Assembly: GCA_021730935.1 (NCBI GenBank)
Contig: JAKFYJ010000043.1
Location: forward strand, 1-64,000
DNA from: Elusimicrobiota bacterium
GTDB taxonomy: Bacteria; Elusimicrobiota; Elusimicrobia; 2-02-FULL-39-32
Direction: 5' to 3'
DNA: 64,000 nucleotides
A program made the translations under genes and the position numbers. Of this stretch, positions 30,555-53,758 are shown one piece after another (the first letter of the stretch is position 1; every line of letters begins with the position of its first letter). A model generated the notes under the pieces. That model was given only the letters and a program-made list of their open reading frames with translations, made no database searches and was not told where the DNA came from.

Positions 30555-30572
30555 AAGATTGGGAAGTTGATA

Positions 30573-30582
30573 ATTATATCAA
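30573..30582 (-). promoter_or_regulatory. Extended -10 promoter before asd
   Basis: On the minus strand, TTGATATAAT (30582-30573) is an extended -10 (TG-A-TATAAT) that includes the hemB stop codon. It begins a TTGATA...TATCAA inverted repeat. The asd ATG is 18 nt further on. Confidence 0.5.
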
Positions 30583-35247: not shown

Positions 35248-35249
35248 AG

Positions 35250-37237: not shown

Positions 37238-37261
37238 TGAAATGTTGTGAAAAATTGCGGC

Positions 37262-38963: not shown

Positions 38964-41393
38964 TTAGGAATCAGTCCTTACTTGGTGTTCTCGGAGGCGG
39001 GGAATTAAAAATCTAAATGCAGAACCTCTTCCGGGCTCGGACTCAACCCAGATCCTTCCACCATGCATTTCGACGATGGCTTTTGAAATCGCAAGTCCAA
39101 GTCCTGTGCCGCCAACTTTTCTTGTGAGAGAAGAGTCGACTTGATAGAACATGCTGAAAATTTTCTCCTGGTCTTCTTTCTTGATGCCGACGCCGCTGTC
39201 GACAACGCTGACGATGACGAAATCGCCGAGATCGTCAATGCTCATTTTTATGAATCCACCTTGTGGAACAAACTTCATGGCATTTGACAACAAATTTTCT
39301 ATGACTTGTTTCACCCGTGATTCATCTGCGGAGACGATGGGGATTTTCTTTTCGATTCGCAGTTCAAAATTAATTTGCTTCGACTCAATACTGGCGCGAT
39401 AGGTGTCAAAACACTCCTGGATAATTTTATCCATGGCGACAGGCTGCAAAATAATTTTGAGCTGACCTGACTCGATGCGGGAAACATCCAGAAGATCCGA
39501 GATGAGAAGCGAGAGGCGCTCAATGGAGTTGTGGGCGATACGCAAAAATTTTCTCTGCTGTTCATTGATGGGGCCCGCGTCTTCGCCGAGGACGACATCG
39601 ACAAAGCCCTTGATCGCGGTCACAGGCGTGCGGAGCTCGTGGGAAACCATAGAGACGAATTCGGTTTTCACCTGGTTGAGCCGTTCGAGCTCGCGGTTGG
39701 CCGCCATGACTTTTTCATAGAGCCGCGCGTTCTGAACGATGACGGCGCTCCGTTCCGCAAGCAGTTCTGCCACGCGGACATGATCGTCGTCGAAGAACCC
39801 TTCTTTCATGCTCGCGAACCGGAGAACGCCGATCATCTCCTCTTCGATTTTAAGCGGAACGAGCATCATGGATTTGAAAGTTCCCTTGGATGAGTTCAGA
39901 ATGCGGGATTTTTTTTCTATGAAAACAATGGTAGTCTCGTCTTCGTAATCGTCGATGCTGATGGGATCCTGATCTGAAGGGGGGTGCGCAACGAGGGCGG
40001 AAATGGTGGCCTCGTGCAGGAGAAAGTCACAGCGCTCACAGTTGAAGGTTTTGCTGATGACGCGGACAATTTTCGCGAGAATAAATTCAAGAACGGGGGT
40101 GGCGTAAAAAGTGTTGTTGACTTCCTGAAGGGCGGTGAGTTCCGCCATGCGTTTGCGGTTTTCCGTCTCAAGATCGGCGTATTCAAGCGCGTTGGCGATG
40201 CGGATCGCGACCAGCGTGAGCGTGCGCAAGTCTTCGTCTTTGAGTGCGATGGAATCCTCGCCATGCAGGGCGCTCGCCTCCTGAATCGGATTGGCAAGGA
40301 CCAGAACGCCTTTGGCCCCCTGAGGTGTTTTGAGCGGAGCCACGATCAAAGAGCGCAAAATAACTTTTGACGCATTTTGTAAAAATTCCTGATCCTTAAT
40401 ATAAGACTGAAGTTCATGGGACAACGAGAGGGGGCCGCCTTTGAAATGCTGGATCTCTCCGCTCTTGAAAGCTGAGACGACCGCGCGCAAAAATGGGCCG
40501 CCTGAGGTGTCGTCCGGAATGCGGATATTGTGTTTGGAATGAGGCAGTCCGAAAGAGGGATATTGAATTTCCAGAACCGGAGGGCGGCCCTTGGGGGAGA
40601 CATCGACGAAGAAAGCGACATATTCCGCGTTAAAAAATTCAGAGATTTTGGGGGAGACCGCCTCAAGGATATCGTGGAGGTTGGAATGCATGCTGGCCTG
40701 AAGCGTGATTTCATAAAGCGCTTTGAGTTCGCGCACATGGTGGATGAGCCGATCGTTGGTTTGGGTGAGCTCGCTCGTGGTGGCGGAAACCTCGGACGAG
40801 AGACGGCGGTTAAATTTTTCCATGAGCTCAATCAGCTGGACGTTCCGCATGCCGACGGAAAGGACTTGGAGATACGGTCGAAGGAGGTCAATGGTGCTTT
40901 TGACAAAAAATTTGCCGTCCGGCGCGGCGGCGACAAAGAGTCCGAGGTTCTGGCTTTGTAGGATGATGGGGGAGATCAAAAAACTTTCCCAGCCGCGGCC
41001 GCCGTCGAGTTTTTCCGTGTCCAGCACTTCTGAAAATTGGGAGCGGGTCAGAATGAGGCCCTGTCCGCTTGCGATGGCGCGGCCCAGAACCCCGTGGCCG
41101 AGGGGGATTGAAAGGCTGGAAACGAAGGATGCGGGGAAACCTTTGTGACAGCGGACGCGATAAGCCCGCTCATCTTCGAGTGTCAGGACGGCGCAGTCGA
41201 TGCTGAAGGATTCCCGAACGGCGGAAAGGAGATAGCTCAAAACCTGGTCTAGATCCTGATAATGCGTCATGCCCTGGGAAATCATGAGAAGGCGTTCCAC
41301 ATTTTTAGAATAGGGGATGCCGGGCCCGGACTCCGGCGGGCGGAGATTTATGAAATCAGACAGCACCGTTAAAAAATTTTGGATGGGTTTCAA
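38964..41393 (-). CDS. Soluble triple-GAF sensor histidine kinase
   Basis: An 809-residue protein without membrane helices. Three GAF-like domains (about 45-190, 230-405 and 425-560), with coiled coil between the first two, are followed by a HisKA domain with the phospho-His in VSMVSHELRTPVTAIKGF (about 590) and an HATPase domain with N box NLLSNAMKFVP, G1 DSGVGIKKEDQEKIF and G2 GGTGLGLAISKA. All catalytic boxes are intact. It senses unknown cytoplasmic cues and has no adjacent response regulator. Its start overlaps the stop of the DnaA-like gene by four bases (ATGA), tying it to the pilT/DnaA-like unit and, by position, to the microcompartment operon. Confidence 0.9.
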   Translation of the reverse strand: MKPIQNFLTVLSDFINLRPPESGPGIPYSKNVERLLMISQGMTHYQDLDQVLSYLLSAVRESFSIDCAVLTLEDERAYRVRCHKGFPASFVSSLSIPLGHGVLGRAIASGQGLILTRSQFSEVLDTEKLDGGRGWESFLISPIILQSQNLGLFVAAAPDGKFFVKSTIDLLRPYLQVLSVGMRNVQLIELMEKFNRRLSSEVSATTSELTQTNDRLIHHVRELKALYEITLQASMHSNLHDILEAVSPKISEFFNAEYVAFFVDVSPKGRPPVLEIQYPSFGLPHSKHNIRIPDDTSGGPFLRAVVSAFKSGEIQHFKGGPLSLSHELQSYIKDQEFLQNASKVILRSLIVAPLKTPQGAKGVLVLANPIQEASALHGEDSIALKDEDLRTLTLVAIRIANALEYADLETENRKRMAELTALQEVNNTFYATPVLEFILAKIVRVISKTFNCERCDFLLHEATISALVAHPPSDQDPISIDDYEDETTIVFIEKKSRILNSSKGTFKSMMLVPLKIEEEMIGVLRFASMKEGFFDDDHVRVAELLAERSAVIVQNARLYEKVMAANRELERLNQVKTEFVSMVSHELRTPVTAIKGFVDVVLGEDAGPINEQQRKFLRIAHNSIERLSLLISDLLDVSRIESGQLKIILQPVAMDKIIQECFDTYRASIESKQINFELRIEKKIPIVSADESRVKQVIENLLSNAMKFVPQGGFIKMSIDDLGDFVIVSVVDSGVGIKKEDQEKIFSMFYQVDSSLTRKVGGTGLGLAISKAIVEMHGGRIWVESEPGRGSAFRFLIPRLREHQVRTDS

Positions 41394-43441
41394 GTTTTTG
41401 GCGGGGTTTTCCCGCTGTCAGCGGCTGGGATCAGCAGGGAAAGATCCAGAGCGCAGTTTAAATATCGATAATCCTTGCCCATTTCGGACCAGGGGATGAA
41501 CTGGAGCGCAATCCGCTCCTCTTCAAGTGCCGCGGAAAGAAATCCCGCGAAATCGTCCTCGCTGAGCATGGGCGTCTGGGGCGGCCCCAGGACCAAAGCG
41601 ATGGAACATTTTTTATCGCGGCAGACTTTGGAGAAAAAGGTGTAATCAAGCTTGCCTTCATAATTGAAAGACTTTTCCGCAAGGCGGTTCAGGCGGAATT
41701 TGAGTTTATGTTTTTTCAGGATCAGCATGAATTTGGACCGGAGCGTTCTGTAATCCTCAATTTTTCCCGAAGGATAAAAGCAGACGACATCGACAGATTT
41801 CAGAGTCTGATCCACATCAGGATCGTCCGGGTCAGGAGTTTCGTCCGCCGCGGCTGAAGGCGCAGGGTCCGACCTGATTGCGACCGGCTCAGGGCTGGGC
41901 GGTTCAGGGGCTGGGGGTTCCGCTTTTTTTTGAGACACAGCTCTCGTCGCGATTTCGAAATCCTCATTTTCATCGATGGCCTGAGCCGCAACGGGAAGAA
42001 TTTTTTCCGAGACTGTCACAGGCGCAGGCGGGACCTCTTTCTCCGGAACCTTCGGAGGGGGGGGAGGAGGAGGCGGCGGGACCGGAGCAGGAGCAGGTTC
42101 CGGGACGAACGGCGTCGGCGGAGATATCGCTTCATTCAGGCGCTGCATGATATCTTCCAGCTCAGACGCTTTTTTCTTTTCCTCTTCCGGAGCCTTCTTC
42201 TTTTCGGACGCGGGCTCAGATTTGGGAGCGGGCGGAGGAACAGGAATAGCCGGCTCCTTGACCGCAGGTTCATGGGCCTGTTCCGGACTGTCGTCTTCCA
42301 TGACGCCTTTTAAGAGGGAAAGGTCCACCTTGGAATTCATGAGACTCGCGGTGGCATATATTTTTTTGACGATGCCTTCGAGCTCGCGGATGTTCGATTT
42401 TGATTTTTCGGCGACATACATGAGCTGTTCGTTGGTGAGGCTCAGATCGATCTGGTCCGACTTGCTCTTGAGGATGGCCACCCGCGTCTCAAGGTTGGGA
42501 GACTTCAAATCCGTGATCAGTCCCCATTCGAACCGCGAGCGCAGGCGGTCTTCGAGAGTGGAAAGCTGTTTCGGCGGACGGTCGGAGGTGATGACGATTT
42601 GTTTGCCGATTTGATGAAGGCTGTTGAAAACATGAAAAAATTCTTCCTGCGTGGACTCGGATCCGGACAAAAACTGGATGTCATCGATGAGGAGCAAGTC
42701 CAGGTGCCGGAACTGTTCGCGCAGAGGATTGATGTTGCCTCGGCGGATACCTTCAATGACCATGCTCATGAATTTTTCCGTCGATATAAAAATGACTTTG
42801 AGCTGGGGATTCTTGGCGAGGATGAAATTGCCGATCGCCTGCATGAGATGAGTTTTCCCGAGGCCCACGCCGCCGTAAATAAAGAAAGGGTTATAAATTT
42901 TCCCGGGATTTTCAGCCACAGCCTGGGCGGCCGCGTGTGTGAAACGGTTGTTGGGCCCCACGATAAAAGAATTGAAGCTATAGCTCGGGTTGAGCGGCGT
43001 GGAAATGGTTTCCTGAGCCTGAACGGAGGACAACGGCGCCGCAGAGGCGGAGACGGAAACCTTCTCTTGAACAACGGGTTCGGGTTTCGAAATTTCCGAC
43101 TTTGCAGGGGTTATGAAATTTTTTGCGGCCGTCTCCAGCATGTCTTCGAGCATGGGGGGCAATTCTTTTTCCACGTGAAGGGACGGGGAATCAATCAATG
43201 TCCCGTCCGCGCAGAAACCCGTGAAGACGTCGACAGCTTTCAGGCGTGCGATTTCGTCGAGTTTATAAAGATAAAAAGCCCAGTCATAATCCTGAGAAAG
43301 CGTGATGAAAGGCCGGCCGCATTCGACCGGGAGCTTTGAGATGAGTTCTTTGAGGTCTTCCTCGCTTCCCCGCACGCGGGCTTTGAAACGGAGAGAATCC
43401 TTCTCAAACGGAAAATGGGCGAGTTCCCACTTCTGGATCAT
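41390..43441 (-). CDS. DnaA-like AAA+ ATPase lacking the DNA-binding domain, with novel ends
   Basis: A 683-residue protein. Residues 1-110 are an unrecognised N-terminal domain, not DnaA domain I. Residues about 152-375 are a DnaA domain-III AAA+ module: Walker A GGVGLGKTHLM (190-200), Walker B LLLIDDIQFLSG (249-260), sensor 1 ITSDRPP, an arginine-rich RLRSRFEWGL and sensor 2 SNIRELEG (349-356). In place of the DnaA HTH domain IV is a long Pro/Glu/Lys-rich linker (about 385-545), then an unrecognised C-terminal domain of about 120 residues starting SVDVVCFYPSGK. It overlaps pilT (ATGA) in front and the GAF kinase behind. It is unlikely to be the replication initiator; role unknown. Confidence 0.85.
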   Translation of the reverse strand: MIQKWELAHFPFEKDSLRFKARVRGSEEDLKELISKLPVECGRPFITLSQDYDWAFYLYKLDEIARLKAVDVFTGFCADGTLIDSPSLHVEKELPPMLEDMLETAAKNFITPAKSEISKPEPVVQEKVSVSASAAPLSSVQAQETISTPLNPSYSFNSFIVGPNNRFTHAAAQAVAENPGKIYNPFFIYGGVGLGKTHLMQAIGNFILAKNPQLKVIFISTEKFMSMVIEGIRRGNINPLREQFRHLDLLLIDDIQFLSGSESTQEEFFHVFNSLHQIGKQIVITSDRPPKQLSTLEDRLRSRFEWGLITDLKSPNLETRVAILKSKSDQIDLSLTNEQLMYVAEKSKSNIRELEGIVKKIYATASLMNSKVDLSLLKGVMEDDSPEQAHEPAVKEPAIPVPPPAPKSEPASEKKKAPEEEKKKASELEDIMQRLNEAISPPTPFVPEPAPAPVPPPPPPPPPKVPEKEVPPAPVTVSEKILPVAAQAIDENEDFEIATRAVSQKKAEPPAPEPPSPEPVAIRSDPAPSAAADETPDPDDPDVDQTLKSVDVVCFYPSGKIEDYRTLRSKFMLILKKHKLKFRLNRLAEKSFNYEGKLDYTFFSKVCRDKKCSIALVLGPPQTPMLSEDDFAGFLSAALEEERIALQFIPWSEMGKDYRYLNCALDLSLLIPAADSGKTPPKT

Positions 43442-44517
43442 CCCAGGACACCGATGCCTCGAACTTTAAGGGTCAGGTCTTCAGGGTTCGTCGCGTTGGC
43501 GACGGCTTCTTCCATCGAAATCTTTTTTTCCTGTGCGAGGCGGATCAAATCCTGGTCAAAGGTGTGCATTTTGTAATACTCGCCCTGCTCAAGCGCCTTA
43601 TAAATGTCTTCCGGTTTGCCTTCAACAATGATTTTTTTTATCAATGAGGTGCCGATGAGCACTTCGGTCGCGGGCCAGCGGGTGGTGCCGTCCGCCGAAG
43701 GCAGGAGCCTTTGTGCGATGATGCCTTTGAGCACGCGGCTGATCTGGTTTCGGACCTGAGCCTGTTGATGCTGGGGATAAGCGTCCACGATGCGGTCGAT
43801 GGTGTGCACCGCATCCGAGGTGTGGATCGTGGAAATGACAAGGTGTCCGGTCTCTGCGGCAGTGATGGCGGCGGAGATGGCGTCATAGTCCCGCATCTCC
43901 CCGATCACAATCACGTCCGGATCCTGGCGAAGCGAATATTTCAGGGCGTTTTTATAGGATTCCGTGTCCGGACCGATTTCCCTCTGGACGATGGAAGATT
44001 TTTTGTCGGCATGGAAAAATTCTATCGGGTCTTCAACAGTTACGATCTGATAGGTGTAATTTTCGTTGATGTGATTGATGATGGAGTTGAGCGTGGTGGT
44101 TTTGCCCGAGCCCGTGATGCCGGCGATCAAAACAAGCCCGCGCTGTTCCCCTGCGAGCTTTTTCATGGTTTCAATGGGAAGATTAAGTTCTTCAAAATTT
44201 TTGACTTTGAGAGGCACCACTCGGAGCGTGAGAGCAAGGGTCCCGCGCTGGCGATAGATGTTTACGCGGAACCGGCTGAGACCGTCCACGGCATAAGACA
44301 AATCGATCTCGTGCTCCTTGTTGAACTTTGTTTTTTGATCGTCACTCAAGAGAGACAGGGCCATCTCGTTGATGGCGCGGGCATCCAGTTTGCCCAGGTC
44401 CGTGACCGTCAGGCTCCCATGGACGCGCAGAAGCGGGGGAGAACCCGCCTTAAAATGGATATCCGAAATTCCGGACTTGATCATCAGCTGAAGCAGTTCG
44501 TTGATCTTCATGGCCAT
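43438..44517 (-). CDS. pilT: PilT-like type IV pilus retraction ATPase
   Basis: A 359-residue secretion-superfamily ATPase. The N-terminal PAS-like domain contains MIKSGISDIHFKAGSPPLLR. Walker A is GITGSGKTTTLNS (133-145), the Asp box VTVEDPIEF, Walker B VIVIGEMRDYDAI and the His box GHLVISTIHTSDAVHTIDR follow. The C-terminal HTFDQDL of PilT is kept, while the AIRNLIRE motif is altered to SLIKKIIVEGK. It powers pilus retraction in well-studied relatives. No pilin or other pilus gene is near. It starts 1 nt after the last microcompartment gene, with AGAGG at good distance, and is coupled to the DnaA-like gene. Confidence 0.93.
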   Translation of the reverse strand: MAMKINELLQLMIKSGISDIHFKAGSPPLLRVHGSLTVTDLGKLDARAINEMALSLLSDDQKTKFNKEHEIDLSYAVDGLSRFRVNIYRQRGTLALTLRVVPLKVKNFEELNLPIETMKKLAGEQRGLVLIAGITGSGKTTTLNSIINHINENYTYQIVTVEDPIEFFHADKKSSIVQREIGPDTESYKNALKYSLRQDPDVIVIGEMRDYDAISAAITAAETGHLVISTIHTSDAVHTIDRIVDAYPQHQQAQVRNQISRVLKGIIAQRLLPSADGTTRWPATEVLIGTSLIKKIIVEGKPEDIYKALEQGEYYKMHTFDQDLIRLAQEKKISMEEAVANATNPEDLTLKVRGIGVLG

Positions 44518-44518
44518 G

Positions 44519-44764
44519 TTATTTTTCCTCTCGGACTATTTTTATGCCTTTCAATGACAGCCAATCCAGAGCCAGCGGGCTCACAATCGCGTTCCCCTGC
44601 ACTTTTAAAATTTTGTCCGGACCGATCATGCGCTTGATTTCATATTCCGACAAAAATTGCCGCCCTTTCCTTGAGGGCAGGGTTTTGCAGGGAACCGACT
44701 GTTCCGGGACGCTTTGTCTCAAGTGTTCCCATAAAATGTCCGCCAGATCATCGGCAATGGGCAT
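44519..44764 (-). CDS. Small BMC-associated protein with EutT-N-terminal-like motif
   Basis: An 81-residue protein. Its second half, FLSEYEIKRMI ... ILKVQGNAIVSPLALDWLSLKGIKIV, follows the pattern 'ITExD(L/V)R ... (V)xxGxxhTPxAxDxLxxxGI' seen at the N-terminus of EutT-like corrinoid adenosyltransferases and as a short module in other microcompartment proteins. No adenosyltransferase catalytic part is present. Its function is not known to me. The start overlaps the BMC-H stop (TGATG), and pilT begins 1 nt after its stop. Confidence 0.6.
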   Translation of the reverse strand: MPIADDLADILWEHLRQSVPEQSVPCKTLPSRKGRQFLSEYEIKRMIGPDKILKVQGNAIVSPLALDWLSLKGIKIVREEK

Positions 44765-45060
44765 CAGCTAAAAACGCTTTCCACCCGTTTCAGATATTTT
44801 TCGAGGTCATCGTGGGGCCTGGGGATCACGTGCACGCTCACCAGCTCGCCCACTCTCTGAGCGGCGGACGCCCCCGCCTCCACAGCGGCCCGCACGGCTC
44901 CCACTTCACCGCGGCAAAGCGTCGTGACCAGCCCCGAACCGACTTTTTCATATCCCAAAAGCCGCACTTTCGCGGATTTGGCCATCGCGTCCGAGGCTTC
45001 CAATGCCCCGATCAGACCTCTCGTTTCAATCATGCCCAACGCTTCAATATTTTCAGCCAT
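44764..45060 (-). CDS. Microcompartment shell protein, BMC-H (second copy)
   Basis: A 98-residue single BMC domain: [22 protein letters not shown] at the start, pore loop KVGSG (hexamer pore, Lys-Val-Gly-Ser-Gly), and [19 protein letters not shown] typical of the fold's second half. It forms hexameric tiles of the shell. The ATG at 45060 is preferred; an upstream GTG at 45069 would add MKS. The gene overlaps deoC by 8 bp and is highly similar to the other BMC-H at 49.6 kb, differing mainly in the C-terminal tail. Confidence 0.95.
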
Positions 45061-45829
45061 GCTTTTCACCGCCTCCCTGTCCGTCTGTTATGATCTGCAC
45101 TGAAGAAGACGCCCCGATCCGATCCGCTCCGGCCCGCACGAGCTCCTCCGCAAATTTTCTGTCCCTGATTCCTCCCGCCGCCTTGATCTTCATGCGGGGC
45201 CCCACCGCTTCGCGGATAACTTTCACGTCTTCAAGCGATGCGCCTCTCGAAGAAAATCCCGTGCTCGTCTTCACAAAATCGGCTCCGGACTCTTTCACAT
45301 AAAGCGACGCACGGACAATTTCTTCCTTCGTCAAAAGCGCCGTCTCAAGGATCACCTTCAAAATTTTTCCCTTCACCGCGTCCCGCACCGCGCGGATGTC
45401 GCGGCGGACTTTTTCATAGTCCTTCGATTTCAAGGCGCCGATGTTGATCACCATGTCGATCTCGTCCGCGCCCGCGCAAACCGCTTCCCGCGCTTCAAAC
45501 GCTTTGGATTCAGGAGTTCCCGCGCCCAAAGGGAACCCCGCAACGGAACAGATTTTGACTCCGCTCCCTTTGAGAAAACGGGCCGCGAAAGAGACATGGC
45601 AAGGGTTCACGCACACGGCCGCGAACTGATGCGCCCGGGCTTCCTCGCAGAGGCGCTGGATGTCCGACTGCGTCGCCTCCGGTTTCAGATTGGTGTGGTC
45701 GATTTTTCCGGCCAGTCCCTTTTCTTTTTCCGCGCACTCCTCACAGCACGGACGCTTTTTGATCTGGAACGGTTTCCAGGCGCCCGGCTCATTTTGAAAA
45801 ACTTTTCCCGCGGTTCCGATGCTCGTCAT
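45053..45829 (-). CDS. deoC: Deoxyribose-phosphate aldolase with Cys-rich N-terminal extension
   Basis: A 258-residue class I aldolase cleaving 2-deoxyribose-5-phosphate into acetaldehyde and glyceraldehyde-3-phosphate. Catalytic positions are visible: Asp in [13 protein letters not shown], Schiff-base Lys in [14 protein letters not shown] and the second Lys in [12 protein letters not shown]. Before the usual start ([17 protein letters not shown]) lie about 38 extra residues containing CCEEC (28-32). This extension could direct encapsulation or bind metal. In an SPU microcompartment this is the signature enzyme, making the volatile aldehyde to be contained. It overlaps BMC-P (TGATG) and BMC-H. 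Confidence 0.94.
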
Positions 45830-46125
45830 CAGTGATATTTTTTCTCCCGGCCTTCCGAACAGACGGAGTCCACGATCCCGCAGACCACCAGCCGGACGGG
45901 CGCTCCCTTGTCGTTCATGATCTGGCGCGCGGAAGACCCTTCGTCCAAAAGCAGGACCGTGTCTCCCGGGCCGGCCCCAAATTTGTTGTCCACCGCCATT
46001 TGCGTGTCGCCCACGGCCTTGCCGGTCATGCTTTCCAAAGCGCGGACAAGAAGCAGTTTGGATCCGGACAAATTTTTATGTTTCCGAGTCGCCCAAATAT
46101 TTCCAACCACGCGCGCGACCTGCAT
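45829..46125 (-). CDS. Microcompartment vertex protein, BMC-P (EutN/CcmL type), third copy
   Basis: A 98-residue pentameric vertex protein. It shows the typical start MQVARVVGNIWATRKHKNLSG, central LLLVRALES and AVDNKFGAGPGDTVLLLDEGSSARQI, and ends VVCGIVDSV. BMC-P pentamers cap the shell's vertices. The start at 46125 overlaps the preceding BMC-P stop by one base (TGATG) and the stop overlaps deoC the same way. Confidence 0.93.
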   Translation of the reverse strand: MQVARVVGNIWATRKHKNLSGSKLLLVRALESMTGKAVGDTQMAVDNKFGAGPGDTVLLLDEGSSARQIMNDKGAPVRLVVCGIVDSVCSEGREKKYH

Positions 46126-46421
46126 CAGGACTCCATCGTCCAGGCCTGCAAGTTCACTCCGTCCACAATGCCCACGATCGCCGCATCCACCGGGGGAGAA
46201 TCCGCGAGACCGGTTCCTCCCATGGCGACAGCCGCGTCCCGGGACGCCACCCAAAAAACAAATTCGCCTGACCCCGCGCCCACTGTGTCCACGGCCACGA
46301 TCGGATCTCCCTTGGGCGTTTTTTCCCAGGTCATGGGCTGAATCAAAAGGAGTCTTGCGGACTCCAAAGTCTCATATTTCCGGCTGGCCGTCACCCGGCC
46401 GACGACTAACGCGGCTTGCAC
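46125..46421 (-). CDS. Microcompartment vertex protein, BMC-P, second copy
   Basis: A 98-residue EutN/CcmL-type protein beginning VQAALVVGRVTASRKYETLES at a GTG start (46421), as no ATG fits. AAGGAG lies very close in front. It contains LLLIQPMTWEKTPKGDPIVA, VDTVGAGSGEFVFWVASRDAAVA and ends DAAIVGIVDGVNL. The segment after VFW diverges from the other copies (RDAAVAMGGTGL instead of GSSARQ). It overlaps rpiB by 16 bp. Confidence 0.9.
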   Translation of the reverse strand: MQAALVVGRVTASRKYETLESARLLLIQPMTWEKTPKGDPIVAVDTVGAGSGEFVFWVASRDAAVAMGGTGLADSPPVDAAIVGIVDGVNLQAWTMES

Positions 46422-46861
46422 AGCTCCTTTTCGAGCTTTGAAATTTTTCTGATCCTGCGCTGATGGCGCCCGCCCGCGAACGGCGTCTTGATCCAGGCCT
46501 TGATCATCTTCGGAAGCAATGAGGGTTTTATAAATCTGCCGGAGAGGCACAGAACATTCGCGCAATTGTGCTCTGAAGCCAATGACGCGGTTTTCACATT
46601 CCATACCACCGCCGCGCGGATGCCGGGAATTTTGTTCGCGGCGATGCTCATCCCGATGCCGGTGCCGCATATCAGAACTCCGCGGTCGGCTCGCCCCAAA
46701 GCGACGGCTTTCCCGACCTTCTTCGCATAATCCGGATAATCCGTGGACTCTTCCGATGTCGTCCCCATATCCACCACTTTGTGTCCCAGCTTTTGCAAAG
46801 CGTCGACAACAATTTTCTTGCTTTCAAAACCGCCGTGGTCGGAACCGATCGCGATCTTCAT
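46406..46861 (-). CDS. rpiB: Ribose-5-phosphate isomerase B family protein
   Basis: A 151-residue RpiB/LacAB-type isomerase: MKIAIGSDHGGFESKKIVV, the catalytic Cys in RGVLICGTGIGMSIAANKIPGIRAA, NANV-like HNCANVLCLSGR, and the end GGRHQRRIRKI. It interconverts aldose and ketose phosphates (ribose-5-P/ribulose-5-P or relatives). Its presence beside DeoC defines SPU microcompartments, where it may act on the sugar phosphate entering the pathway. The start at 46861 overlaps the BMC-T stop (ATGA). Confidence 0.94.
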   Translation of the reverse strand: MKIAIGSDHGGFESKKIVVDALQKLGHKVVDMGTTSEESTDYPDYAKKVGKAVALGRADRGVLICGTGIGMSIAANKIPGIRAAVVWNVKTASLASEHNCANVLCLSGRFIKPSLLPKMIKAWIKTPFAGGRHQRRIRKISKLEKELCKPR

Positions 46862-47412
46862 GAGTTCGTCAAAACTTTCAGGAGAGATTTGTGGGCGTAA
46901 GGGATGATCACCCACGAGATCAAAGACCCTTCTTTCTTTATGCTTTCAATGCCCGCCGTGACCGCGGCCCGGACAGAGCCCACTTCGCCGGTCAGAGTGA
47001 CATATCCTTTTCCGCCCGCGCCTTTGCCCGGAAAAACTTCGATCAGTTTTATGGCGGCCTTCTTGGCCGCGGCATCCGCCGCATAAATGGAGGCGGCCGC
47101 GTCTTTCGTCTCGATCACGCCCACGGCCTCAAGGTTCTCCACGGACTGCCGCGCGCGCATGGCGGGCAAAACGGAATCGTGCACGTTCTGGATGATGAAA
47201 TGTCCCAGGAGCCACGCGTCTGCGATCTGGACTCCGGCGGCGAGGGACTGCTCCACTTCCGCCTGTTCCCCTCCGATCAAGATGGTATATTTCCCGCGCG
47301 GAATCGCCTGCGTGTGCAGGAGCTCCACTTCCGCCATTTTCATCATGGCGTCCGCCGCCTCAATGCCCTTGGCGATGGATGAGAGTTCAATAAAACCGAT
47401 GGCCTGGCCCAT
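46858..47412 (-). CDS. Microcompartment shell protein, BMC-T (tandem domain)
   Basis: A 184-residue fusion of two BMC domains. The first runs from AIGFIELSSIAKGIEAADAM to about residue 88 with pore-side IPRGKY. The second starts NLEAVGVIETKDAAASIYAAD with pore-side PGKGAGGKG. Trimers of such proteins form pseudohexamers, often with a gated central pore for larger cofactors or metabolites. No Cys for an iron-sulfur cluster is in the pore loops, unlike PduT. Its start shares a base with the PilZ stop (TAATG). Confidence 0.94.
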   Translation of the reverse strand: MGQAIGFIELSSIAKGIEAADAMMKMAEVELLHTQAIPRGKYTILIGGEQAEVEQSLAAGVQIADAWLLGHFIIQNVHDSVLPAMRARQSVENLEAVGVIETKDAAASIYAADAAAKKAAIKLIEVFPGKGAGGKGYVTLTGEVGSVRAAVTAGIESIKKEGSLISWVIIPYAHKSLLKVLTNS

Positions 47413-47831
47413 TACTTTTTCTCCTTTTGAATCTGCTGTCGAAGCAGTTTGTCCTGCCGGACCCGCTCCTGCATTATAAATTTGTTGAGCTTGATGTGTT
47501 CCCGAAGGTCCGTCAGGTCCCGGATAAAAAATTCCAAGCCATAAATCGTCTGGCCTTTCCAGGGATAATTGTGGCGCACGACCGCGACCAGATTCATGTC
47601 CAGATCGGGGCTGAGTTTAAAGCTCATCTGCAGTTTGTCGCCGCGCTTAAACGCCGCGCCCGAAACCATGCGGAGCCCGCGGAGCGAGAGATCGAGCAAG
47701 TCGCCTTTGGCCGCGGCTTTCCCCGAGCGGACCACCTCGATCGGAGCGGACTCCATCACGCGGATATATTTCCGCCGCTCCAGCATGACGACCTGCCCTT
47801 TCGTCCTTATGAATTTCCTGCGCTCAATCAT
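47412..47831 (-). CDS. PilZ-domain protein embedded in the microcompartment operon
   Basis: A 139-residue PilZ protein with both parts of the c-di-GMP-binding signature: RKYIR (RxxxR, residues 20-24) and DLSLRG (DxSxxG, 47-52), followed by the beta-barrel strands (KLQMSFKLSPDLDMNLVAVV) and a C-terminal charged helix. A second RRKFIR copy sits at residues 4-9. The start at 47831 overlaps the aldehyde dehydrogenase stop (ATGA) and the stop shares a base with BMC-T (TAATG), so it is translated with shell and enzyme genes. It may link c-di-GMP to the compartment; no such role is established. Confidence 0.88.
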   Translation of the reverse strand: MIERRKFIRTKGQVVMLERRKYIRVMESAPIEVVRSGKAAAKGDLLDLSLRGLRMVSGAAFKRGDKLQMSFKLSPDLDMNLVAVVRHNYPWKGQTIYGLEFFIRDLTDLREHIKLNKFIMQERVRQDKLLRQQIQKEKK

Positions 47832-49240
47832 GCGATCCTCAAATATCCCACCATGGAACAATGGAGCGGACGGCTGAAATGCGTGGGTTTTGTGAGCCCG
47901 TCGCCCGTGGGCGTGCCGATGGACATGCTCGCAAACCCTTCGCCCATGCCCAGCCCCATATAGTTCGGGCCGTTCTTAACGAAAATCGAGCAAGCCATTT
48001 CGCGCGCGGCTTTCGTGATGTTTCCCACATGCATGGAATAAATGGATGCCGTATGATGGTTTCCGCCTTCAACTTCCTTTGCCAAAGCAATTGCCTTGTC
48101 TATGTCGGCCGCGCGGGTCACAGGCAAGACCGGCATGAGCTGTTCGATCCAGAGAAACGGATGAGTTTCAGGAACTTCGCCCCAGAGGAGCTTCACAGTT
48201 TCCGGAATTTCCAATCCGGCGGCCCGCGCGATCACGCCCGCATTTTTTCCGACGAACTCGCGGTTCAAAACCATCTCGCTTCCGGACTGCTTAAAAACGA
48301 TTTTCGCGAGCTGATCCATCTGTTCGCGCGACAATTCATGGGCCCTTTTATCTTTTCTCAGTTCAGCCAAAAACGCGTTCGCCGCCGATTCCGTCACAAT
48401 CACCTCTTTTTCTCCCGTGCACAAAACACAGTTGTCGAACGAAGCGCCGCTCACAATCCCGGAAGCGGCGACAGCCATTTCTGCCGTCTCATCCACGATC
48501 ACGGGGGGATTGCCGGGACCGGCGCAGATTGTCTTTCTGGGGATTCCGGCCGTCATGGCGATTTTCACGATCGCGGGGCCGCCCGTCACCAGAACCATGT
48601 CCACTTTGGGATGTTTCAGAAGCGCGACCGTGTTTTCCTGCGTGGCGGAAGCAAAGGTGGTGATCAAATTGGCCGGGCCGCCCGCCGACTGAACGGCTCG
48701 GTCCAATATTTTTATGGTTTCCTGGGAACAATTTTTCGCGGAGGGGTGCGGAGCGAAAACAACAGAGTTTCCGGCGGACAAAATTGAGATGGAATTGTTG
48801 ATGATCGTGGCGGTCGGATTCGTGGAAGGCGTCACGGCCGCGACCACGCCGAAAGGCGCCTGCTCGACGAGGGTCAATCCGTCGTCGCCCGTATAAGCTT
48901 TCGCCGGCTGAAGGTCTTCAACTCCGGGCGTTTTCCGGGACACCAAAATATTTTTTTTGATTTTATCTTCAACGCGGCCCATGCCGGTTTCCTGCTGCGC
49001 GAGCTTCGCGAGAGGCTCCGCGTTTTCAAGAGCCGCCTGACGCAGGGCTTCGATTATTTTTTTTCGCGCCGCGAGGCCGAGAGATTTAAAAACTTCCTGG
49101 GATTTGCGGGAGGCTTCAACCGCGTCGTTGACGGCGGGAAAAAACATGCCGGGCGCCTGGACCGGCTGGGGAGCTTTGGCTTCGAGGCGCTTTAAAACTT
49201 CCTGAACGAGGGACTGGACATCCTCTTCTCTGAGTTCCAT
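47828..49240 (-). CDS. CoA-acylating aldehyde dehydrogenase (PduP/EutE type) with encapsulation peptide
   Basis: A 470-residue enzyme oxidising acetaldehyde to acetyl-CoA. The N-terminal MELREEDVQSLVQEVLKRLE forms an amphipathic helix followed by a Pro-rich linker (AKAPQPVQAPG), the classic encapsulation peptide layout. The dehydrogenase core has PFGVVAAVTPSTNPTATI, GGPAIVKIAM, and the active-site region FDNCVLCTGEKEVIV, where Cys274 aligns with the catalytic residue of EutE/PduP (Cys271 is the extra). In this locus it would take acetaldehyde from DeoC. 3 bp separate it from BMC-P, and it overlaps PilZ. Confidence 0.94.
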   Translation of the reverse strand: MELREEDVQSLVQEVLKRLEAKAPQPVQAPGMFFPAVNDAVEASRKSQEVFKSLGLAARKKIIEALRQAALENAEPLAKLAQQETGMGRVEDKIKKNILVSRKTPGVEDLQPAKAYTGDDGLTLVEQAPFGVVAAVTPSTNPTATIINNSISILSAGNSVVFAPHPSAKNCSQETIKILDRAVQSAGGPANLITTFASATQENTVALLKHPKVDMVLVTGGPAIVKIAMTAGIPRKTICAGPGNPPVIVDETAEMAVAASGIVSGASFDNCVLCTGEKEVIVTESAANAFLAELRKDKRAHELSREQMDQLAKIVFKQSGSEMVLNREFVGKNAGVIARAAGLEIPETVKLLWGEVPETHPFLWIEQLMPVLPVTRAADIDKAIALAKEVEGGNHHTASIYSMHVGNITKAAREMACSIFVKNGPNYMGLGMGEGFASMSIGTPTGDGLTKPTHFSRPLHCSMVGYLRIA

Positions 49241-49243
49241 CCT

Positions 49244-49558
49244 CTATCCTCTTTTTCCGGCGAAGTCCTCGCTCTTTGAAAAAAGGATTTTGCCTTCCTT
49301 CTCAATATAATCCACAACGGCAAAAATGGAGCAGTCCACGGGGTTGCCTTCCGTCTGACGGGTCTGCCGCGCAGAAGAGCCCTGCACAATCAGCACCAGC
49401 TCGCCTTCTCCGGACCCAACCGCGTCCACTGACACGATCGGACTGCCTTTGGGCTGACCCTCAAGGTCCACCGGCTGGACCAGCATCAGTTTTGTGCCGA
49501 CGAGTTTTTCGTCTTTGCGCGTACAGACGACATTCCCGATGACTCGGGCGAAAAGCAT
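49244..49558 (-). CDS. Microcompartment vertex protein, BMC-P, first copy
   Basis: A 104-residue EutN/CcmL-type protein: MLFARVIGNVVCTRKDEKLVG, LMLVQPVDLEGQPKGSPIVSVD, AVGSGEGELVLIVQGSSARQT and a VDCSIFAVVDYIE end. It keeps the most canonical motif set of the three vertex paralogues. It lies between BMC-H (10 bp) and the aldehyde dehydrogenase. Confidence 0.95.
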   Translation of the reverse strand: MLFARVIGNVVCTRKDEKLVGTKLMLVQPVDLEGQPKGSPIVSVDAVGSGEGELVLIVQGSSARQTRQTEGNPVDCSIFAVVDYIEKEGKILFSKSEDFAGKRG

Positions 49559-49568
49559 TTTTTAATCC

Positions 49569-49868
49569 TTACCGCTTGCCCCGGTTCATGGTTTCAGGCA
49601 AAGAAATGGGCATCTTGCCTTCGAGGTCCGGATGAGGCTGAGGAATCACGTGGACCGCCACCAGCTCGCCCACTTTCTGGGCCGCCGCCGCGCCCGCGTC
49701 GCAAGCCGCTCTGCAGGCCGCAACTTCGCCGCGGAAAAGGACTGTCACCAGGCCTGAACCGATCTTTTCATAACCCACGATGCGGACATTCGCGGATTTG
49801 ACCGCCGCGTCTCCCGCCTCAATGAGCGACACCAAACCTCTCGTTTCAATCATGCCTAATGCTTCCAT
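49569..49868 (-). CDS. Microcompartment shell protein, BMC-H (first copy)
   Basis: A 99-residue single BMC domain: [22 protein letters not shown], pore loop [24 protein letters not shown], ending in a short Pro/Arg tail. It is the likely bulk hexameric shell tile as the first shell gene of the operon. AGGAGG precedes the ATG. Confidence 0.95.
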
Positions 49869-49884
49869 TATGCCTCCTTATGGT

Positions 49885-50511
49885 TCACAGCATCGTTCCT
49901 AAATCGCCGTTCTTCACTCCCAAAGCGTTGCCTTCGTCCGTGTCGAGATGGCATTCCAGTTTCATGTCGTCGCGCACGCGGCACAAAACATTGATCACGC
50001 CGTCCCGCGGAGGTTTTCCAACCTTTATTTTCACATACTCCATATTTTTTATGCCGAAAACTTCAGCTTCCTTCGTCTGAAAATGAATATGCCGCATCTG
50101 GACGATCGCGCCTTCTTCGAGGTGAACTTCGCCGGCGGGGCCGATCAGGGTGATGGGCGCAGACCCTTTGACATTCCCTGAATCGCGGACGGGAGCGTCG
50201 ATGCCGAGCGTCACGCAATCGGTGCGTGCCAATTCAATTTGGTTATAGGGCCGGAACGGGCCGATCAATCGCGCTTTTTTGATTTCGCCTTTGGGGCCTT
50301 TAAGGATGACGGTCTCTTTGCAGGCGAACTGGCCAGGCTGAATGAGGTCTCGAATGTTGGTGGGCTTGGCTCCAACGCCAAAAAGTTTTTCAAAAGTCTC
50401 CTGGGTGCAGTGCCAGTGACGGTTGGAGATGTTGACGATGATTGGTTTTGATTCCCGGTCCATTCTTTTTATGAGTTTCTGCGTGATCTCCCCGGCAAGA
50501 TCCTGAGACAT
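49885..50511 (-). CDS. pduL: Phosphate acetyltransferase PduL
   Basis: A 208-residue microcompartment phosphotransacylase that converts acetyl-CoA and phosphate to acetyl-phosphate and recycles CoA. The zinc-binding His residues are visible: NISNRHWHCTQ (His32, His34), VQMRHIHFQTKEAEVFGI (His141, His143) and KLECHLDTDEGNA (His188). The first motif is NRHWH where SxRHxH is usual. Two PduL beta-barrels fill the rest. The N-terminal SQDLAGEITQKLIKRM could serve as encapsulation helix. It comes second in the operon. Confidence 0.94.
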   Translation of the reverse strand: MSQDLAGEITQKLIKRMDRESKPIIVNISNRHWHCTQETFEKLFGVGAKPTNIRDLIQPGQFACKETVILKGPKGEIKKARLIGPFRPYNQIELARTDCVTLGIDAPVRDSGNVKGSAPITLIGPAGEVHLEEGAIVQMRHIHFQTKEAEVFGIKNMEYVKIKVGKPPRDGVINVLCRVRDDMKLECHLDTDEGNALGVKNGDLGTML

Positions 50512-50520
50512 GAGCGTCTG

Positions 50521-51342
50521 TTATGCTGCCTGATACGCCACGATCCTTGAGAAATCCGCCGCCTTGAGGGAAGCGCCGCCGACGAGTCCGCCGTCGATGT
50601 CGGGCTGGCTCATGAGAGAATCGATGTTGTCGGGTTTGACGGAACCGCCGTACAAAATTCTTGTTTTCTGCGCGAGAGGTTCATTATAAATCTGCGACAA
50701 AATCTTTCTGATGAACGCGTGCATTTCCTGCGCTTGAGCGGGGGAGGCGGTTTTGCCCGTGCCGATCGCCCAGACCGGCTCATAGGCGATGACAAGCTTC
50801 AAATAATCTTCTTTCACGAGGTTCGAGACCCCGTCCCTGATCTGCCGCTCCACGACTTTAAAATGGTTATTGGCCTCGCGCTCTTCCAAAGTCTCGCCCA
50901 CACAGACGATGGGGAACAGCCCGGCCTTGAGCGCGGCGTTCATCTTGTCATTGACGATTTTGTCCGTCTCGCCGAAATATTGCCGCCGTTCGGAATGCCC
51001 GATGATGACATATTTACAGCCCGCGGCCTTGATCATGGGTCCTGAAAGTTCGCCCGTGAAAGCGCCTTCATTGGCCCAGTGGAGGTTTTGAGCGCCCAGA
51101 CAAATATTGGTGCCCATGATAATCTCGGACACTTTTGTCAGGTTTATGGAAGGGGGACAAATCAGAATTTCGCGTCCGGAAACGCCCGCGACCAGCTGTT
51201 TCAATTCTTTGGCAAGAGCCTCAGATTCGGAAACGGTCTTATACATTTTCCAGTTCCCCGCCAAAAGCGGCGTTCTCTGAAGTGTGGATTTTTTTTCCAC
51301 ACCCTTTTCCCTCTCTGTCGGCTTCGCGGTTTGCTGTTCCAT
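50521..51342 (-). CDS. tpiA: Triosephosphate isomerase, first gene of the microcompartment operon
   Basis: A 273-residue enzyme interconverting glyceraldehyde-3-phosphate and dihydroxyacetone phosphate. Catalytic residues: Lys in [11 protein letters not shown], His in [14 protein letters not shown] and Glu in [17 protein letters not shown]. Phosphate loop [11 protein letters not shown] and GLVGGASL are present. An N-terminal extension of about 26 charged residues precedes the usual start ([17 protein letters not shown]). Placement 9 bp before pduL suggests a task with DeoC's glyceraldehyde-3-phosphate. A promoter lies just upstream. Confidence 0.95.
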
Positions 51343-51352
51343 TTGCGTTTCG

Positions 51353-51382
51353 ATTATAGCAGTTATGCCGCCGTTTCCGCAA
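51353..51382 (-). promoter_or_regulatory. Candidate promoter of the tpiA-microcompartment operon
   Basis: On the minus strand, TTGCGG (51382-51377), an 18-nt spacer and a perfect TATAAT (51358-51353) lie 10 nt before the tpiA ATG and after/around the stop of the Cache kinase gene. It would give a leader of only about 3 nt. Confidence 0.6.
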
Positions 51383-53159
51383 GATTTTTTTCTGTTTCCT
51401 GCCGTTTTCCGGAACGCGAAGGAAGCCGCACAATGAAGGTGCTTCCTTTGCCGGGTTCGCTCTCCACGCGGATTTGGCCGCCGTGAAGCTCCACGGCCAT
51501 CTTGCAGAAAGTGAGGCCCAGGCCCGTGCCGGATCTCACGCGAACGCGTTTCCGTTCCGCCTGAACGAACTTGTCGAATATTTTTTCTTTATATTCAGGC
51601 GAAATGCCTTCGCCGTTGTCCATGACCACAAGCTCGACAAAATTCTCGACAGAGCGGCACTCCACGGTGATCAGCCCTTTGGGCCGAGTGTGACGGATCG
51701 CGTTCGAAAGAAGGTTGGTGATCACGCGCTTGATCATCGGGCCGTCAACCGCGATTTTATGCACGCCCTCATCTATGTTTTTGATCAGCTGTTTGGATTC
51801 CTTCTCGATCTGGAGACGGAAATTCTCCGCGCATTCTTCCATCATTTGCGCCGGGTTTATTTTTTCCAGCCGGGGAGAAAGTTTGCCTTCTTCCATCTTG
51901 GCCACGTCCAGCATGTTCTGGATCATCTGCAGAAGCTCGTCGGAAGATTTGCGCGAGAGGCTGAGAATCCGCTTGGAAGTGTCCGAGATTTTATCGTGTT
52001 CGTTCTGCTCGATATAATCAATACTGCTCATGATGGCGGAAAGCGGGCTTTTCAAATCATGAACGATCATGGAGATGAGGTCACGCCGCAGATCCTCAAG
52101 CTGTTTGAGGGACCCCGCCATCTGTTTGAAAGACCCCGCGAGGTGTTCAAGTTCATCGCCCGTGTGGATATCCAGGTCCAGATCCAGGTGCCCGTGCGCG
52201 ATTTTCCGCGCGCCCTCTTCAAGAAGCTCCACGGGCTTCACGATCTGCCTCACGCGCCAAAGCGCCAGGGCCAAAATAATACACATCGAAATTGCGGTCC
52301 ATTTGATCACGGCTTTTTCCATCGTGCGGATCGGAGCATAGGCCTTCGATTCCGGAGTTTCAACCACCACGCCCCAGTCCAGGTTCGGCACGGCTTCGAC
52401 TACGGAAACGACGTTCTCATGAACATCGTTTTCGTGCACGCCGAAAGAAGAGCGCCCGGTCCTGCCGCTTTTGAACGCTTTCACGAGGGACAGCCCGTCC
52501 ATGTTGGTGTGCGAAAGAACTTTTTCAGGGACCGGGTGAGCGAGCAGATATCCTTTGCTGTCGATGATATAGGCCGTGTCCCCCTGATGATCCGCGATTT
52601 GTTTGACCACGTCCCAGAGGCTGTCGAGACGCACCTTCACGACGAGCACGCCGCGGCGTCCATAAGTGGGACAGCTCACAAAAAAATACGGCATCCTGTC
52701 CCCGCCGAAAAACGGTTCGCTCGCGACCGCAAGCCCTTCCGCCATCGCGTCCTGGAATTCAGGCCGGCTCTTTCGGGAGATCAGGCGCCCGGGAACAAAC
52801 TTGTTGTCCTGACTCACGAGTTTGGCGGTCTCCATGCCGAAAGCGTTGAGGAGAATGGCCTCTTTAAAAGTGGGCTGCCACCTGAGGAGACGGCGCAAAG
52901 ACTCTTCCTGCCTGGCCGGCCTCATGGCGGAAAGCCCGGGCTCTTTGGAAGCGATGGAAAGGACGGAGTGAACATTGTCGAGGTGAATGGAAACGCGGTT
53001 GGCGATGCGCTGAGCGGTTTGGGACTGCTGGATATAAATCGAATCGGTGAGGGCTTTTCGTCCGGTTAAAATCAGGCTGATCGCGATCGCGGCGGCGGGG
53101 CCCACGACGGCCAGGACCGCGAAAACGGTGAATTTAAACGCCAGGCTTTTTTTATTCAA
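51363..53159 (-). CDS. Membrane sensor histidine kinase with Cache sensor
   Basis: A 598-residue protein. A first membrane helix (about 8-30) is followed by an extracytoplasmic Cache-type sensor (about 35-280) with YIDSKGYLLAHPVPEK typical of double-Cache. A second helix (about 288-308) precedes HAMP (about 310-362) and HisKA, with phospho-His in MIVHDLKSPLSAIMSS. The HATPase domain has NLLSNAIRHTRP, DNGEGISPEYKEK and RSGTGLGLTFCK. All boxes are intact. It overlaps the DUF47 gene (ATGA) and precedes the tpiA/BMC genes by 20 bp. No response regulator is adjacent. Confidence 0.92.
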   Translation of the reverse strand: MNKKSLAFKFTVFAVLAVVGPAAAIAISLILTGRKALTDSIYIQQSQTAQRIANRVSIHLDNVHSVLSIASKEPGLSAMRPARQEESLRRLLRWQPTFKEAILLNAFGMETAKLVSQDNKFVPGRLISRKSRPEFQDAMAEGLAVASEPFFGGDRMPYFFVSCPTYGRRGVLVVKVRLDSLWDVVKQIADHQGDTAYIIDSKGYLLAHPVPEKVLSHTNMDGLSLVKAFKSGRTGRSSFGVHENDVHENVVSVVEAVPNLDWGVVVETPESKAYAPIRTMEKAVIKWTAISMCIILALALWRVRQIVKPVELLEEGARKIAHGHLDLDLDIHTGDELEHLAGSFKQMAGSLKQLEDLRRDLISMIVHDLKSPLSAIMSSIDYIEQNEHDKISDTSKRILSLSRKSSDELLQMIQNMLDVAKMEEGKLSPRLEKINPAQMMEECAENFRLQIEKESKQLIKNIDEGVHKIAVDGPMIKRVITNLLSNAIRHTRPKGLITVECRSVENFVELVVMDNGEGISPEYKEKIFDKFVQAERKRVRVRSGTGLGLTFCKMAVELHGGQIRVESEPGKGSTFIVRLPSRSGKRQETEKNLAETAA

Positions 53160-53758
53160 ACGGTTTTGACCAGAATATCTCCGATGATGTCCGCCGATTC
53201 GTCGCAGCGGTCTGCCGCGTTCGACATGTGGCGATAGATTTCTCTCAATTTTAAAATTTGAATGACGTCCTTTTCTTTAAAGAGTTCCGCGAGGGCTTCG
53301 CGATAAAGCCGCTCCATCCGGTTCTCGGTTTTTTTCGCGCGGACAATGTGGTCGGTCGCGGCTTTGGGATCGTTCTTCATGAACCCCACGGCCGCAGAAA
53401 CGTCGGCGGCGGCGGAGGTGAGGATCTCGGCCATTTTTTTCAGGTGATCGTTCGGCTGAACTTCAAAAAGCGTCATTTCCGCGACGGTGGACCTGGCGTA
53501 ATCGCAGACATCGTCGATGGTGCGGGACAGGGCGAAAATATCTTCGCGGTCCACAGGAGTGACGAAGGTGCGGTTGAGGCCGTCAATGAGGATGCGGCGA
53601 AGTTCATCCGCTTCTTTCTCGATGGTCTCCACGCGGAGAGCTTTTGCGGGAGTCGCGTCCTGCATGAATTCCAAAAGCGCAGTCATGCCTTCTTCGACTT
53701 TGAGAGCCTGGTCGGAAAGCATTTTGTAGAAATCATATCGCTTGGGAAATGGCCACAT
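53156..53758 (-). CDS. DUF47 / PhoU-like phosphate transport accessory protein
   Basis: A 200-residue all-helical protein of the DUF47 (PhoU-like, Pit accessory) family. It has acidic motifs KEADELRRILIDGLNRTFVTP, VDREDIFALSRTIDDVCDYA and RHMSNAADRCDESADIIGDI, which bind metal in PhoU-like folds. It usually regulates or assists the adjacent PiT transporter. It is located 4 bp downstream of pit and overlaps the histidine kinase gene. Confidence 0.92.
   Translation of the reverse strand: MWPFPKRYDFYKMLSDQALKVEEGMTALLEFMQDATPAKALRVETIEKEADELRRILIDGLNRTFVTPVDREDIFALSRTIDDVCDYARSTVAEMTLFEVQPNDHLKKMAEILTSAAADVSAAVGFMKNDPKAATDHIVRAKKTENRMERLYREALAELFKEKDVIQILKLREIYRHMSNAADRCDESADIIGDILVKTV

Follow-up and report, generated by a model that had tools for sequence, protein, structure and literature searches.

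Bacterial microcompartment (BMC) loci of the sugar phosphate utilization (SPU) type have been described by Axen 2014 (PMC4207490) and Sutter 2021 (PMC8217296), and in the passages of those papers that treat them the SPU substrate is inferred from the encoded enzymes. Here we analyse a 64,000-nucleotide stretch (the window) on contig 4 (JAKFYJ010000043.1) of a 2.7 Mb genome (GCA_021730935.1) from the seldom studied bacterial phylum Elusimicrobiota, in which a locus of this kind continues into a trio of genes for a PilT-family ATPase, a DnaA-like protein (DnaA-MID) and a GAF-domain sensor kinase. As SPU loci are set out in those passages, the window run shares with them a DeoC-type aldolase, RpiB, triosephosphate isomerase, aldehyde dehydrogenase, PduL, BMC-H, BMC-T and three BMC-P proteins; it differs from them in adding the PilT-family ATPase, DnaA-MID, the GAF kinase and a PilZ protein. 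PilT is not mentioned in the main texts of either paper. Within the openly licensed literature, supplements excluded, we found no account linking microcompartments with PilT and DnaA, no Elusimicrobia microcompartment of this kind and no description of a protein that combines a DnaA motor with an Argonaute-like MID domain. The locus is an SPU-type variant, and the DnaA-MID chimera is its most novel part.

A second point of reference is natural transformation (PilT, ComEC, ComM and DprA). PilT is shared with the window, and ComM and DprA follow the module in other families. The module differs from transformation systems in its ties to sugar-phosphate catabolism and, among other families, to RecJ and nucleoside phosphorylases, a difference that hints at DNA as food. 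Across the phylum, the trio is consistently accompanied by genes of (deoxy)ribose-phosphate catabolism, with the shell an optional addition, a conclusion that is well supported by the neighbourhoods described below.

Layout of the window operon

All operon genes lie on the minus strand. The microcompartment part begins with tpiA for triosephosphate isomerase (50521–51342; PF00121, E 1.5e-100; the sole copy found in this genome), followed by genes for the phosphotransacylase PduL (49885–50511; PF06130, E 4.2e-65), a BMC-H shell protein (49569–49868; PF00936, E 5.5e-28), a BMC-P (EutN/CcmL) vertex protein (49244–49558; PF03319, E 6.5e-31) and an aldehyde dehydrogenase (47828–49240; PF00171, E 2.4e-33). 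Among named sequences, the closest relatives of this aldehyde dehydrogenase come mostly from Elusimicrobia metagenome-assembled genomes. Inside the shell operon there is a PilZ-domain protein of the cyclic di-GMP type (47412–47861; PF07238, E 1.6e-11), as also found in a relative (G006), and then come a BMC-T protein with two BMC domains (46858–47412; PF00936, E 2.8e-39, two stretches) and the sugar-phosphate isomerase RpiB (46406–46861, start inferred; PF02502, E 9.5e-58). Two further BMC-P vertex proteins have approximate starts (46125–46400, with PF03319 at E 3.6e-17 on 46125–46370; and 45829–46125, with PF03319 at E 2.8e-24 on 45829–46254). The last genes before the trio encode the deoxyribose-phosphate aldolase DeoC (45053–45829; PF01791, E 2e-19; TIGR00126, 278 bits against a cut-off of 117), a second BMC-H protein (44764–45069; PF00936, E 6e-28) and an 81-amino-acid protein with no Pfam or NCBIfam match (44519–44764), which appears tied to shell genes: in our table of 81 annotated regions it is never listed without one. 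An earlier note on this DNA had called the locus SPU-type, and the DeoC-type aldolase (pfam01791) and RpiB (pfam02502), together with the shell genes, triosephosphate isomerase, aldehyde dehydrogenase and PduL, fit that label.

The trio consists of the PilT/PilU-family ATPase gene (43438–44517), the DnaA-MID ATPase gene (41390–43441; PF00308, E 2.6e-68; structure model) and a sensor kinase gene with a TTG start codon (38964–41393; GAF regions, HisKA and HATPase: PF13185, PF01590, PF13492, PF00512 and PF02518). The start of pilT at 44517 is separated from the 81-amino-acid gene by 1 nucleotide, pilT overlaps the DnaA-like gene by 4 nucleotides and the latter overlaps the kinase gene by another 4. 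The coordinates therefore bear out the earlier description of a microcompartment operon running directly into the three genes, although the span given for them, 43438–51342, omits the DnaA-like gene and the kinase. From the first gene of the run, encoding a PHO4 transporter (start at 54797), to the end of the kinase gene (38964), the 19 genes are separated by gaps of at most 20 nucleotides, given the assigned start codons.

The same note had seen no promoter or terminator in between. Promoter-like sites number 13 in a scan of 38–55 kb, against 8.0 ± 2.6 in shuffled sequences, so single sites are weak evidence. Only two on the minus strand have at least 10 of 12 matches: one just before the PHO4 gene (54834–54805; 11/12) and one just after the kinase gene and before a rhomboid gene (38960–38932; TTGATT-17-TATAAT, 10/12), of a kind that chance also yields in shuffled sequence. 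No promoter-like site of the minus strand lies between tpiA and the kinase gene; a TATAAT 10 nucleotides ahead of the tpiA ATG is without a scored −35. Terminator-like sites occur at chance level (23 versus 23.6), and two of those on the minus strand overlap the 81-amino-acid gene. That the arrangement goes beyond chance is argued by its recurrence in many genera and families.

Recurrence across Elusimicrobiota

We annotated 81 regions, 75 of which contain the DnaA-like gene. Six were dropped: L048, L049 and L050 are without the gene in the region, L161 and L162 hold other DnaA matches, and in L046 the open reading frame caller missed a gene whose C-terminal domain is found by profile. Neighbours were counted by genus and family if they were on the same strand, within 12 kb and in regions with enough flanking sequence, with at least 6 kb required upstream for the sugar-phosphate genes. 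Counted in this way, 34 of 44 genera and 18 of 19 families (all but f14) have at least one of tpiA, rpiB and deoC upstream of the DnaA-like gene. The GAF kinase is found downstream of DnaA-MID in 41 of 59 genera (19 of 25 families). Shell genes are upstream in 18 of 44 genera (9 of 19 families) and PilT in 25 of 51 (13 of 21 families), fractions that are not those of a random sample, because the first 20 regions were picked partly for nearby shell genes. The profile of the C-terminal domain of DnaA-MID matches 203 of the 294 genomes sampled from the phylum, including some beyond the class of the window.

Five genomes (G013, G033, G036, G020 and G011) have the DnaA-like gene beside tpiA and/or rpiB and no shell match anywhere in the genome, with PilT retained in the first three; in another five (G121, G155, G145, G117 and G137) the search covered the fetched region, where no shell gene turned up. 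No shell was found in G051 either. PilZ-like genes stand beside rpiB or tpiA in G145 and G155. Conversely, shell genes and the kinase occur in G004, G005 and G007 with no PilT or DnaA-like gene between them, and in family f14 the shell locus and the DnaA-like gene are apart, with DnaA-MID, the kinase and a further gene, X (see below), together away from the sugar genes. The earlier note would have given up the association had the trio occurred without BMC genes and never next to them; in fact, the trio often lies beside the shell and also occurs without it.

For PilT itself, we compared 98 genomes (that of the window and 97 relatives), taking matches to the window protein with E up to 1e-100. 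They separate into a group of 33 places, with E of about 3e-129 or better, and a remainder at 3e-110 or worse. The first comprises full-length orthologs with 53–68% identity (100% for the window), whereas other matches have at most 50%; two cut genes of the first kind (G002 and G073) fall into the lower group. Among the 33 genomes with this operon-type PilT, 24 have a shell domain within 500 nucleotides, one (G032) has its shell on another contig and 8 have no shell match. As read by eye, the operon-type PilT thus adjoins shell genes in 24 of the 25 genomes that have both, and the link to BMC genes suggested by the window recurs in relatives.

The window PilT passes TIGR01420 (442 bits against a cut-off of 319) and its Walker A, Asp box, Walker B and His box are intact, features shared with PilT/PilU retraction ATPases. 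It differs from these in belonging to a separate ortholog group tied to the operon and in an altered version of the AIRNLIRE-type motif of retraction PilT: the window protein reads SLIKKIIVEGK where another PilT-family gene of the same genome reads AVRNLIREGK. Of three other PilT-family genes in this comparison, that of L139 was read in a wrong frame and is uninformative. The genome encodes three further PilT-sized matches and one longer match.

The genes downstream of the module come in two versions that never occur in one locus, either ComM, DprA or TopA (31 loci) or purine nucleoside phosphorylase (PNP), pyrimidine nucleoside phosphorylase (PyNP), RecJ or a second PNP-family gene (16 loci). 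At least one member of the latter set follows on the same strand in 15 of 52 genera and 12 of 24 families; among these 12 families, RecJ is present in 6, PyNP in 5 and the second PNP-family gene alone in 3. The second PNP-family gene carries our own label, MTAP (Pfam gives PNP_UDP_1), and in G011 it lies behind two opposite-strand genes. RecJ directly follows DnaA-MID in G135, G123 and G136. DeoB is encoded in all four loci checked for it (G121, G155, G137 and G022) and transketolase in G155 and G117. The order in G155 is TpiA, PilZ, RpiB, DeoC, PilT, DnaA-MID, kinase, two transketolase halves, DeoB, PNP, PyNP and, at the region edge, the start of RecJ. The genome of the window has an operon of PNP, PyNP, RecJ with an inserted RNase T domain and the second PNP-family gene on another contig (L211, 6763–12098), and it also encodes ComEC.

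Other neighbours of the window module are not kept in the 81 regions: the rhomboid gene comes after the module in genus g1 alone, and a Cache kinase was matched upstream only in families f1 and f7. In the window this dCache-HAMP sensor histidine kinase (51363–53159; PF02743, PF00672, PF00512 and PF02518) lies between tpiA and genes for a PhoU-like DUF47 protein (53156–53758; PF01865, E 3e-19) and the PHO4 phosphate transporter (53763–54797; PF01384, E 1.4e-80). The next minus-strand genes beyond the module (29514–37846) include those for semialdehyde dehydrogenase, ALAD, porphobilinogen deaminase, glutamyl-tRNA reductase, a cytochrome c assembly protein, a sirohaem-type dehydrogenase, ResB and GTP cyclohydrolase I, and the start of the window holds an open frame of 2,147 amino acids (126–6569).

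The DnaA-MID protein and its partner X

The DnaA-like protein has a small N-domain (residues 1–78), a DnaA AAA+ domain III (residues 148–387) and a MID-like domain (residues ~546–668; nucleotides 41390–41806). Comparison of the structure model matches residues 148–387 to domain III of DnaA with Z 28.5 and 55% identity to 8btg, and structural alignment with Bacillus subtilis DnaA domain III (8bv3) gives 56% identity. The window protein has Walker A, Walker B, sensor motifs and an arginine finger; it shares these and the AAA+ fold with the replication initiator DnaA. It differs from DnaA in its N-domain and in having a MID-like C-terminal domain and no match to domain IV, the DNA-binding helix-turn-helix (no Pfam match at E 0.001); the place of domain IV is taken by a long linker rich in proline, together with a folded domain some 120 residues in length. 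The NCBI model for DnaA (TIGR00362) is barely passed, at 348.8 versus 343.9 bits, by a match that stops at position 343 of 437, before domain IV. It would name the gene DnaA despite the missing DNA-binding domain, and automatic annotation is likely to give two DnaA genes on the contig, because a second match, a 468-amino-acid frame that we take as the true dnaA, lies 33 kb away.

Several comparisons connect the C-terminal domain, modelled with a pLDDT of 91, to Argonautes. Ranks 1–8 in Foldseek are human AGO2 MID domains (E 1.5e-5 to 1.3e-4), with TM-scores of about 0.55–0.62 when normalized by the length of the model. The 50 matches listed by VIA-align 2, which compares only chains ranked high by Foldseek, are all Argonaute or PIWI (Z 11.0–13.4), for example 4p1z (Z 12.5, root-mean-square deviation 2.4 over 118 residues). 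Alignment of profiles with hhalign gave 86% for the domain versus six prokaryotic Argonaute MIDs and at most 1% for 16 control families. When the profile was tested on Argonautes, three of six ranked 2, 4 and 8 of 571 in the MID region (ranks 1 and 3 are module proteins from L061) and the other three ranked 32, 165 and 315 over 10–27 columns only. In the reverse test, DnaA-MID proteins took ranks 1–10 of 597 (the window protein being fifth), with others ranking as low as 538, and only 16 of 32 were aligned at their C terminus over 40 columns; these rows are related and we attach no probability to them. Searching PDB sequences with the MID-like profile gave no Argonaute at E values up to 10; support for the MID assignment therefore comes from folds and profile–profile scores. 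Other Foldseek matches (lumazine synthase, a lobe of ribose-binding protein and the lipoprotein 4ycs) indicate that a general Rossmann-like likeness is possible. A Pfam scan of 16 copies of the domain returned two families, each for one copy (E 0.11 and 0.17).

On this basis the predicted domain that replaces domain IV has the fold of Argonaute MID, a likeness that applies at the level of fold only. Compared with the MID domains of prokaryotic Argonautes, as covered in the relevant passages of PMC6299218, and of PIWI proteins, it shares the fold and a profile similarity in both directions, with misses; it differs in having no PIWI match and no phosphate-pocket lysines and in being fused to a DnaA AAA+ domain or, in X, to a disordered-looking linker. 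No Piwi match was found in the DnaA-like protein at E 0.001 or elsewhere in its genome. Across the phylum PIWI matches occur in only 3 of 294 genomes, 2 of them above the cut-off, so the sampled genomes offer no obvious Argonaute donor of the domain.

Gene X is often found between pilT and the DnaA-like gene. The encoded protein starts with a short amphipathic helix and continues through a linker rich in proline to a C-terminal domain that is homologous to the MID-like domain (hhalign 97%, and 91% in another comparison), with only 57% against Argonaute MIDs. In L060 and L061 the small N-domain is carried by X and not by the DnaA-like protein. A third protein ending in a MID-like domain is encoded between pilT and X in L061 (16877–18052) and is the top profile match among the 571 proteins. 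In family f10 (L055, L056, L149–L151, L195 and L197), DnaA-MID forms part of frames of 750–1,624 amino acids, excluding one cut by the contig end; in the one scanned (L056) the long N-terminal part has no Pfam match. The helix of X was considered as an encapsulation peptide, an idea weakened by its presence in the shell-less G020 and G011 and by the absence of the searched pattern from 6 of the 24 X proteins listed.

Possible functions of the module

DNA and nucleoside scavenging is the simplest account of these data, because RecJ and phosphorylases share the run in other families, and it agrees with the published guess for SPU loci and with the competence genes of the phylum. SPU loci have been proposed to metabolize products of DNA degradation (PMC8217296, in its treatment of these loci), and the passage of PMC8809381 on competence genes reports that these are usually conserved across the phylum, with expression in Endomicrobium. 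In such a system, pili retracted by the PilT-family ATPase of the operon would capture DNA, DnaA-MID with X would bind incoming single strands and pass them to RecJ or shield them from recombination, phosphorylases and DeoB would yield deoxyribose-5-phosphate, and the kinase would sense a ligand and tune the system. We hold with roughly even confidence that the trio is part of a superoperon of ancient origin in Elusimicrobiota that serves the scavenging of DNA and nucleosides; its genomic context is well supported, and the molecular role of the trio is the part that we infer. Tentatively, and with more doubt than conviction, we suggest a more specific form, a dedicated DNA-eating machine arranged as one ancestral superoperon, in which a private retraction ATPase would draw DNA into the cell, DnaA-MID with X would bind the strands and feed them to a RecJ-type exonuclease, and phosphorylases and phosphopentomutase would supply deoxyribose-5-phosphate to be consumed by the microcompartment. 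DnaA-MID would then represent a new class of nucleic-acid ATPase.

A number of observations weigh against scavenging. RecJ and PNP also have housekeeping roles. Families f2, f7–f10 and f13–f15 have ComM, DprA or TopA downstream instead of the nucleoside set; in the genome of the window the nucleoside operon is not beside the trio and deoB (TIGR01696) has no match. Co-occurrence with ComEC, which we tried as a test of DNA uptake, is uninformative, as ComEC is present in 93 of the 98 genomes. In 8 of 21 families the DnaA-like gene has no PilT next to it, and of the 48 genomes with a shell match among the 98, about half are without operon-type PilT beside the shell (for example, G004, G005, G007 and family f14). 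The C-terminal domain has no match in 91 of 294 genomes, including listed members of f16, f3 and f5. In the protein itself, of 32 aligned rows covering the site, 18 have no arginine finger, some rows being one genome twice. Alignments read by eye show the MID-like domain without the lysines and tyrosine of the 5′-phosphate pocket; only Q and N are kept of the motif, given as YKQTNK in the pertinent passage of PMC6299218.

The earlier note had also raised a shared control of pili and sugar-phosphate use. This is possible, and the nucleoside phosphorylase and RecJ neighbours point more closely to the use of DNA and nucleosides. In its fullest form, X, DnaA-MID and the GAF kinase would be a signalling unit that adjusts PilT retraction and transcription to the sugar-phosphate or nucleotide state, with DNA not a cargo. 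The frequency with which the kinase follows DnaA-MID (41 of 59 genera), the overlap of the genes, the PilZ genes in the same runs (window, G006, G145 and G155) and the retention of the unit where no shell was found are all consistent with this. Signalling alone, however, leaves the RecJ, PNP and PyNP neighbours unexplained, as it does the combination of a nucleic-acid type of AAA+ domain with a MID-like fold, and no response regulator gene was noticed in the annotated runs, in which no profile search was aimed at one. We consider this explanation unlikely.

Slow reshuffling of an ancestral gene order, with no shared function, would account for the housekeeping genes dprA, topA and xerC in some versions of the block. 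It is quite unlikely, given that the rhomboid and Cache kinase genes are not kept alongside it, that the window genes overlap or abut and that in f14, where the sugar genes are elsewhere, X, DnaA-MID and the kinase remain grouped. Improbable, too, is a role for DnaA-MID as an Hda-like partner of the true DnaA that links initiation to the supply of deoxyribonucleotides. Its AAA+ domain is close to that of B. subtilis, the NCBI cut-off is passed by the partial match and the presumed dnaA is only 33 kb away, but the Hda model (TIGR03420) is not reached, at 110.1 bits against a cut-off of 194.8. Hda would need the arginine finger, which is missing in more than half of the rows, and the PilT and catabolic neighbours would be unexplained. 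The earlier suggestion that PilT, DnaA-MID and X position or partition compartments in the manner of McdAB is very improbable: shell genes are upstream in 18 of 44 genera and the helix–linker–domain layout of X resembles a cargo or adaptor protein, but we rejected it as the main account because the module persists without shells (in the five genomes with no shell match, which keep DnaA-MID with sugar-phosphate genes, and in others with no shell in the region), the helix of X occurs in two of those five, G004, G005 and G007 have shell and kinase without PilT or DnaA-like genes, and no ParA-type Pfam match was found among the 19 operon genes.

As for the scavenging account, conserved runs that place RecJ, nucleoside phosphorylases and DeoB near SPU enzymes make the idea of DNA catabolism directly testable. 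The operon context suggests that these bacteria may possess a dedicated system for the uptake and consumption of DNA.

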